Shown here: positions 35,468-38,400 of the stretch, piece by piece
How the letters are laid out: each line of letters starts with the position of its first letter
Numbering within the stretch: the stretch's first letter is position 1
Source of the DNA: Plumapathes pennacea
Lineage: Eukaryota; Cnidaria; Anthozoa; Antipatharia; Myriopathidae
Assembly: GCA_964036295.1 (NCBI GenBank)
Contig: OZ038468.1
Location: 17,920,683-17,984,682 of the forward strand
DNA length: 64,000 nt
Reading direction: 5' to 3'
Notes under the pieces: model-generated
Database searches by the model: none
Seen by the model: the letters and a program-made list of their open reading frames with translations, nothing else
What the model was told of the DNA's origin: nothing
Position numbers and translations under genes: made by a program

Positions 35468-38400
35468 CTAAATCTTTTCGATGTAGTTGGACGGGAAAAG
35501 TCCTTCACGTCCTCGGAGTCGCCCAGTCCACCAACCAGAAGAATCTGAAACGAAACCACAAACCAAGAAAACACATGAACGGACACCAGGAAGCTGTCAA
35601 GGAAATACAATCTCAAAACAAGCAGGATTCTTCCTCGACCAGAAAGAACTAACGACCTTGCTGGGATAAACCGTTCTGTACCTTTTTTTTCCCACAATTT
35701 GTTTTTTAAACGTCGCTCTTTTCATGTGCAGAACTCAATGCAAACTAGCTCAAACAATGCTTTTGTTCATTTGCATTAATTCGGTGTATGAAAAGAGCGG
35801 TATCTGAATTGGGCGTTAGTGTTGAGAACCAAAACCAGCTTCCATACTTGGTTTTGGTTTTGTCTCTGATTGGCTGAGCATGCTGACAAACTCGTGTGGA
35901 CCAATCCTAAAGCGAAGCAAAGTAACGCAAAACCAAAGCAATCACACAATACTTTCGACAGTCATGAAAACCGCTCTAAACACAATAATCGAATTCGCTG
36001 AGAGGGTCTTGTGATGGATTAATTGGTGACTCACCCTCTTTGACAATCTCGATGACCTCATCTGGTTGGAATGTCAGCTCATCAACATCCGTCGCGTCAT
36101 ACGGGTACAGAGTCTTGCACATGGGAAGATTGGGCGCCGGTTTAGGGGGAAGGCGCGGTTTGCCAGGCGCCGGGGGCCGCTTGGATTGAGCTCTCTTGTT
36201 CGAGGTTACTCTTTGAATGCTGAAACAAAGAAATAAACAAACTATTAAATGATACTTTGCCCCTAAAATGAACCTGCTCAATGATCAACGAACTCCAAAC
36301 TTCTTCTTTGCAGCGAAATGTTTATTCAACAATATATTCCGCCGCTTTCTAGTTTGCACAACATGATTGGTCAAACCGTGTCACGTGAATCCAACCAAAG
36401 ACCGTTTTACAAATATGAGGACGACACATGGAAGTGGAACTTTTCAGAGCCTCTTAGAGTACCCAACGTGGGCATGTGGTTACCGTTTTGTAGGTGAGAA
36501 TTGAGCGTTTAGCAATTTTGAATTTAGTTCTGTTTAACTTTTTGTCAAGATGATTAAATCTTGCTTCTTTCGTGTTACGTTCATTTGTTAGTTTCATGTC
36601 ATTGTTTCTAAAATGATCTTGCAAACACTTGCAAATATCTCAGGTTTGATCGTTATGTTATGAATGTTACGATACGCTTATAAACCGCTTTACGTTTACT
36701 GTGTCACAAAGCTGATTAAATCAGCGAGATTTGGAAGATAAGATACTCTAGTTCAGCATAAGCCCGACCAAGTTAGTCCTCAAGTTCATTCAAATTCGAA
36801 GGAGCCGCCTCCGCCAATCCGATGCTTTGGTTGCATCCAGGAATGTAAAAATGAAGGATTTAATAAATAAATGAAAACACACACACACAAACAAAAAATG
36901 GTCTTAGTTCCAGTACAAACCAAAGCCCATATTATATACATATGTGTGCTGTCATAGGTAAATTAATAAAAGATTAGATGAAAAGATAAAATGTGCTTTC
37001 GATTTTTCCCCAAAATGGCGGATGGAGAATTTCGGGCGCGCAAAGGATTGTGGTCGAGACGGCTCCCTCAGTCTTACCTCTCAGAGGAAGAGTGAGAATC
37101 TTCAGAGTTCGTCGTGCCGTTAGTTCCTCCGTTTGAAAACTGAAGGTTAACGTAGTCACACGCATTATCATCGAAATGTCCATTGCAGTGTGCTGTCGTG
37201 TCGCCATGAGGAGCCATTGTCATGTACTGCTCTTCTTGTGTATCAACATTTCCATTGCAAATGGCCGACTCGGTGCCGGAGTGATTGACACATTGTTGTT
37301 GTTGTTGTTGTTGTTGCTGTTGTTGTTGTTGTTGTTGTGGTTCTTGTTGCCGCCTTTCTTGCTCTAGCTCTTTCTTTTGTTGTTGGTGTAACAGTAGAAG
37401 GTTTTGTAGCTGCTCGTCCTCTGCCCCTTCTTGCTTTGATTCTATTGGCTTCTTTGGTCGTTGTTGTTGCTGTTGTTGTTGTTCTACGGAGTTCCCATGC
37501 TTCAGTGTGGACACTGCGTACACTCCTTCTTGTAGAGACTGTAGCACACCCGCAGTATACGGCGTGTCACTGGTGCAATCAATAGCAACAAAATCGCCTT
37601 CGAAAACATCAGGTATGCGGCGATAGTCACAGTCGGAAACGGCGTAATGGTTTTCCTGCGTGTTGCGTGACGGAGTGTTGCGTGACGAAGTACTGCGTGA
37701 CGGAGATTTGCGTGAAGAGGAAGCATAATCACCTTGCGGCGTTGCAGTTTTCTGGTGATTTTTATGAGTGGTCGCGAAGCGCGCGATAACTCCACCACGA
37801 GGACCAGCCGCAGATGAGGTTTCCGGACGAACTCGGCCGTCCATCACTTCATATTCGCCGTTTTGGGAGGAACCGTTTCTGAGAGAGTATTCATCGATTT
37901 CTTGTCTTTTCTTTACACCCAATGCGCCAGTAGATCGTGCGCGCGAGGGTCTTTCGTGCGAGCGACAGTTAGTGTCCGCGCGCGACGTTGCAGACACGGC
38001 GCGCGCACTGTACGCGATGCTTCTACCGTTTTCTGCGTCGTCGTCGCACTCGAAGCTGACACGTCTTCTGCACTCGCTCCTGGATCTTCCTCTTCTGCTG
38101 GTCTTGCCATACGTGACATCATTACCAGGGAGAGCATTGTAGTTGCGCTCCCCGTTTCTCAATATTCCTTTCAGTTCGCGATAATTCGTACAACTGTTAA
38201 CTCCGTGTATACGTGGCGTCCCCACAGGGAATGTTTCGTACGCTTTAGTTCCTCTTTGGGGGGCAGAGGTTGGTGGGTTCATGCGGTTAAATCTGTTTAT
38301 TTTTAAAAAGTTTAAGATAAGAATCTTTACAAAGTATTCCACGAACTTACACTAACGTCTCTTCGAGTTTACTAGGATTAGAATCGTTCATTCAAAATTT

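Follow-up and report, generated by a model that had tools for sequence, protein, structure and literature searches.

A 405-codon in-frame exon with candidate phosphotyrosine-docking sites in a MYO1E/F-type myosin gene of Plumapathes pennacea

A MYO1E/F-type myosin gene and its exon 30

We analysed a stretch of 64,000 nt from contig OZ038468.1 of the Plumapathes pennacea assembly GCA_964036295.1 (hereinafter the window, to whose first letter all positions refer unless a contig is named). The minus strand carries a MYO1E/F-type myosin gene at 35467-54218, for which we rebuilt a spliced model of 32 exons; the exon bearing the start methionine is missing from this model. The encoded protein is 1491 residues long with exon 30 (hereinafter the cassette) and 1086 residues long without it, and these lengths are the same as those given in the initial annotation of this DNA.

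Pfam places a myosin motor (Myosin_head, PF00063, residues 14-671, E 3.9e-254) at the front of the 1086-residue form, followed by Myosin_TH1 (PF06017, residues 724-915, E 5.4e-47) and a C-terminal SH3 domain of the MYO1E/F type (SH3_9, about residues 1034-1084, E 4.6e-15); a sixth match below the cut-off, to nSTAND3, lies near the P-loop. The closest PDB structure to the tail is the SH3 domain of human MYO1E (2xmf, E 5.5e-23). Exons 29 and 31 hold a basic, proline-rich TH2 region, as read from the sequence only: exon 29 (39219-39459, minus strand) encodes a TH2-type linker that ends in TPESGVCG at phase 2, exon 31 (36035-36219, minus strand) encodes a proline-rich stretch and the start of the SH3 domain, and exon 32 (35467-35544, minus strand) supplies the end of the SH3 domain and the stop codon. 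By its domains and its SH3 relative, the 1086-residue form is a long-tailed class I myosin of the MYO1E/F type, which bears out the architecture first proposed for it.

In the 290-Mb genome the TH1 domain has one further match, on contig C3, and the exon-31 peptide has no match besides itself at E <= 0.001. The first modelled intron (54092-53072) has the lowest splice score of the gene at both of its ends. Its donor, GTATCCTTT, and the TTCCTTAAC near its acceptor are what we take to be U12-type consensus sequences, and the exon model is therefore probably right at this point.

The cassette spans 37078-38292 on the minus strand and measures 1215 nt, or 405 codons. It is preceded by ATAAACAG and followed by GTAAGACT, with an AG at the 38292 border and GTAAGA at the 37078 border. 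Both flanking introns are of phase 2 and the frame joins that of both neighbours, so that the exon is phase-symmetric; the borders, length and phases noted at the outset are thus all reproduced. The frame that joins the neighbours has no stop codon, and the other two forward frames have 23 and 10. A 404-codon open run was kept in none of 20,000 dinucleotide shuffles of the cassette (longest run 336). The codon-usage score does not favour the coding frame (–0.013 bits per codon, against +0.090 and +0.029 in the other forward frames). Judged by its borders and reading frame, we take the cassette to be a real coding exon of the myosin gene.

Several further features lie in and around the gene. 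The intron directly upstream of the cassette contains a 347-nt MITE-like element (38790-39136) with TTAA at both ends and 52-nt terminal inverted repeats that are 90% complementary, and by eye further introns of the myosin gene seem to contain similar sequence. Upstream of the gene, exons on the minus strand at 57000-63200 resemble, by eye, those of a multi-C2-domain membrane protein; the only frame scanned there (59686-60447) has no Pfam match. At 6123-33699, also on the minus strand, open frames of 473, 485, 482 and 1442 residues with starts 7.3-8.5 kb apart look, unaligned, like tandem copies of a single gene. The 1442-residue frame has no Pfam match and by eye resembles a large membrane protein.

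The encoded linker and a segment common to a helicase gene

The cassette has no match to any Pfam family, which includes PH and PTB modules. Against the PDB it gave ten weak matches (best E 0.46), and the three inspected residue by residue consist largely of glutamine runs. Relatives were also sought in prokaryotic genome contigs and viral contigs, where cnidarian sequences are not expected; none of the 593 and 600 pattern matches, respectively, was confirmed. AlphaFold2 run without an alignment gives a mean pLDDT of 39.8, with values below 50 at 350 of the 404 residues, and the encoded segment looks disordered on this prediction, in a single-sequence mode that often yields low confidence without disorder. 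The sole confident element is a helix at residues 290-320 (37332-37424, minus strand), with a block mean pLDDT of up to 90. The cassette also holds polyglutamine stretches derived from CAA runs and, at 37649-37718, a 25-nt unit that occurs four times at 15-nt spacing and encodes SRxxP-like repeats. Autoinhibition through SH3 ligands in the cassette is not favoured, as there are one PxxP and no [RK]xxPxxP or PxxPx[RK] motifs.

A 232-nt piece of the cassette (37357-37588, minus strand) is 88% identical in DNA to G000:C11:572144-572381, on another contig. This shared piece, which the initial annotation does not mention, is sharply bounded, has as its only indel an in-frame one of 6 nt in a CAA run, and includes residues 290-311 of the predicted helix. 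Its counterpart sits in the N-terminal part of a single open frame of 2456 residues (G000:C11:571501-578868) with DEAD, helicase-C, HA2, OB-fold, KH_DEAH11 and IBR domains, that is, a DEAH11-type helicase/RBR gene with KH and IBR domains. The two copies differ by 5 synonymous changes on 46.7 sites and 11 nonsynonymous changes on 169.3 sites; the resulting uncorrected Ka/Ks of about 0.6 over 72 codons would indicate weak constraint at best.

No third copy of the segment was found in the genome at the protein level at E < 1, the next best match having E 1.0. At the DNA level the segment gives 13 matches, of which 11 are neither the cassette itself nor the helicase gene (E 2e-11 to 1e-5, 68-79% identity). 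These 11 cover only query positions 118-281 or 212-281, the CAA-rich half; the six inspected consist of 85-100% CAA/CAG-type trinucleotides and none encodes the NLLLL peptide. The remainder of the cassette matches only itself as DNA, in a search that ignores simple repeats and words of very high frequency, and as protein it has one weak genomic match (E 0.053, 28% identity, three stops). Helicase residues 1-1466 (of 2456) gave 33 genomic matches, with 32 of 56 candidates scored; the myosin piece is the sole relative of the N-terminal region among them, all others lying in query residues 997-1466, the helicase part.

Tyrosine contexts and short motifs

Hydrophobic residues at +3 and acidic residues upstream are expected around tyrosines that serve as kinase substrates and SH2 ligands, and the cassette is enriched for both. 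Seven of its 14 tyrosines have L, I, M, V or F at +3 (binomial P 0.0012; P 0.0011 by shuffling), an acidic residue occupies –3 in 7 (P 0.001) and –1 in 5 (P 0.022), 11 have one within –3 to –1 (P 0.001), and 5 combine the +3 hydrophobic with an acidic residue in –3 to –1 (P 0.0003). The sample is small (n = 14), and with 13 offsets and two properties, hence 26 combinations, the two strongest results remain only marginally significant after correction by a factor of 26. A hydrophobic residue at +5 is also nominally frequent (5 of 14, P 0.032), a position for which we know of no docking rule. No such excess at +3 was seen for any of the 13 other residue types tested in the cassette. Elsewhere in the myosin, 7 of 43 tyrosines have a hydrophobic +3, and the TH2 exon 29 contains no tyrosine. 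Two controls were unremarkable: the N-terminus of the helicase on C11, with 12 tyrosines (+3 hydrophobic in 1, acidic in 5, both in none), and the first 900 residues of P0002, with 33 (7, 6 and 2). Several cassette tyrosines thus stand in kinase- or SH2-type contexts within a region predicted to be disordered. A preference of tyrosine kinases for acidic residues is described in the accessible part of PMC3514216.

Short motifs occur frequently in disordered regions. The three singled out at first, RVSF of the PP1-docking type, YMTM of the p85-SH2 type and YVNL of the Grb2-SH2 type, are located on the minus strand at 38052-38063, 37215-37226 and 37143-37154. Given the composition of the cassette, shuffling returns YMxM at P 0.00085, Y[VIL]N at P 0.096, YxN at P 0.63, [RK]V[ST]F at P 0.008 and any RVxF at P 0.0625; RVxF, YMxM and Y[VIL]N occur jointly in none of 20,000 shuffles. 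These three motifs were picked post hoc; the general tyrosine-context test was not chosen motif by motif. Two further motifs on the same strand, absent from the initial annotation, are an ITAM-like YREL-x10-YNAL at 38130-38183 (P 0.011 by shuffling), which fits the ITAM spacing of YxxL/I-x6-12-YxxL/I, and a second YxxM, YEVM, at 37842-37853 (P 0.006 for two YxxM).

The RVSF lies in a stretch predicted to be disordered (RRRVSF; mean pLDDT 32 at residues 71-80). PP1 docking by the cassette would rest on this one four-residue motif, whose RRVS we also take to resemble a basophilic kinase site. The earlier proposal that the long form acts as a phosphotyrosine adaptor, by comparison, gains independent statistics from the tyrosine contexts; phosphorylation and SH2 binding are the steps that we infer.

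A candidate docking linker on an actin motor

The open exon, its frame and domain context, its low predicted order and the enriched tyrosine contexts together point to a docking linker added to an otherwise ordinary MYO1E/F myosin, with inclusion probably regulated and the skipped form an ordinary myosin, an explanation to which we give an even chance. Inclusion of the cassette would insert a disordered linker of about 404 residues between TH2 and SH3, and the motor and TH1 would bring this linker to actin at the membrane. Several of its tyrosines may then be phosphorylated by membrane tyrosine kinases and would recruit SH2 proteins of the Grb2 type, the PI3K p85 type and possibly the Syk type, so that the motor would double as a docking scaffold in cis. 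The explanation thus further supposes that the cassette is transcribed, that its tyrosines are phosphorylated and bound by SH2 domains, and that its splicing is regulated, skipping probably returning an ordinary myosin.

Splice-site strengths bear on this last step. Scored leave-one-out with matrices built from the gene's own 31 introns, the cassette acceptor ranks fifth from the bottom of 31 (3.33) and the exon-31 acceptor second from the top (17.68); among the 31 donors, that of the cassette ranks seventh from the top (9.88). A weak acceptor ahead of a very strong one would favour some skipping of the cassette and fits regulated skipping. The exon may instead be constitutive, forming a long TH2-SH3 linker that spaces the SH3 domain from the membrane and carries mostly incidental motifs. 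Symmetric phase is by itself no sign of skipping, the strengths of the 39219 and 37078 donors range from ordinary to good, and the Ka/Ks of the common segment is compatible with such a spacer; the order of acceptor strengths and the non-random tyrosine contexts, missing from both controls, argue against it, and we hold it to be possible, if somewhat unlikely.

A recently gained exon, derived in part from a copied gene piece, spliced at a low level and functionless, would account for the 88% identity of 232 nt to the helicase gene with no third peptide copy at E < 1, for the want of a convincing genomic match to the rest of the cassette, and for the MITE-like element with inverted repeats in the intron upstream. 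It sits poorly with 404 open codons, with a sole indel that keeps the frame of the common segment and with the non-random tyrosine contexts, and appears improbable. That the cassette is a separate single-exon gene within a myosin intron, running from an in-frame ATG at 38282 to a TAA at 37076-37074, would agree with the long single open frame of the helicase gene that has the common piece, but its stop one base into the intron is uninformative because a phase-2 GTAA donor always creates it, and the frame continues in phase into both same-strand neighbours and ends at the seventh strongest of 31 donors, which leaves this reading very improbable.

The docking-linker explanation can be extended to the origin of the exon. 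A splicing switch would then convert a class I myosin into a motor with its own multi-site phosphotyrosine scaffold of PI3K-, Grb2- and ITAM/Syk-type sites, part of which would have been assembled when a helix-bearing stretch of about 77 codons inside the exon was copied between the myosin gene and the DEAH11/RBR helicase gene on another contig; taken as a whole, this fuller account seems unlikely. Should the scaffold be used, its origin would be traceable, since a second gene contains either the source or a daughter copy of the 232-nt piece, and this can be dated.

MYO1E and MYO1F share the motor, TH1, proline-rich linker and C-terminal SH3 domain with the Plumapathes gene, which differs in an additional 404 residues that separate TH2 from SH3. 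The main text of a review of MYO1E/F (PMC7177449) contains no word beginning with 'splic', and among the open-access literature matches listed no title concerns MYO1E/F of a cnidarian or splicing in the tail of a class I myosin. The accessible sections of PMC6981383 treat tail splicing of myosins V and VI. The cassette exons of the myosin Va tail (B, D and F) likewise are tail exons that alter partner binding, exon F being required for melanophilin (same source, accessible sections); those exons were established by experiment, whereas skipping of the cassette is a prediction from its sequence.

Docking proteins of the IRS, Gab and FRS families also have tails with several YxxM, YxN and YxxL sites, and YVNL of the cassette resembles the Grb2 sites of IRS-1 Y896 and ShcA (PMC3514216, in excerpt). 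Unlike these proteins, the cassette lacks a PH or PTB module (no Pfam match) and is borne by a motor protein. Myosin III-like proteins with SH2 domains in choanoflagellates and filastereans (PMC3942036, in excerpt) similarly couple tyrosine-kinase signalling to a myosin motor; they carry the reader, the SH2 domain, whereas the cassette carries candidate tyrosine sites on a different myosin class.

In mammals, according to the available portion of PMC6521229, Myo1f is a partner of the SH2 adaptor 3BP2, found through a clone holding the Myo1f SH3 domain and possibly bound via that domain; the 3BP2 SH2 domain alone did not bind Myo1f, and Myo1f is phosphorylated by Fyn. On that portion, an in-trans link to phosphotyrosine signalling therefore already exists. 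Excerpts of further sources describe the MYO1F SH3 domain as organising an adaptor group of CD2AP, ASAP1, SH3BP2 and SH3KBP1 (PMC12772958), serine phosphorylation of MYO1E and MYO1F, partly in TH2, after TLR4 stimulation (PMC7177449), Grb2 and Shp2 homologues in Hydra (PMC7260276), and Syk/Zap70-type kinases in invertebrates with CARD-CC/Bcl10, cnidarians being counted for Bcl10 (PMC5978004). The Myo1f-3BP2 partnership, the adaptor role of the MYO1F SH3 domain, the Hydra homologues and the Syk/Zap70 literature would make a cis docking linker beside a MYO1E/F SH3 domain plausible. If used, the cassette would equip an actin motor with phosphotyrosine docking in cis, in contrast to the in-trans SH2 adaptor of vertebrate MYO1F.
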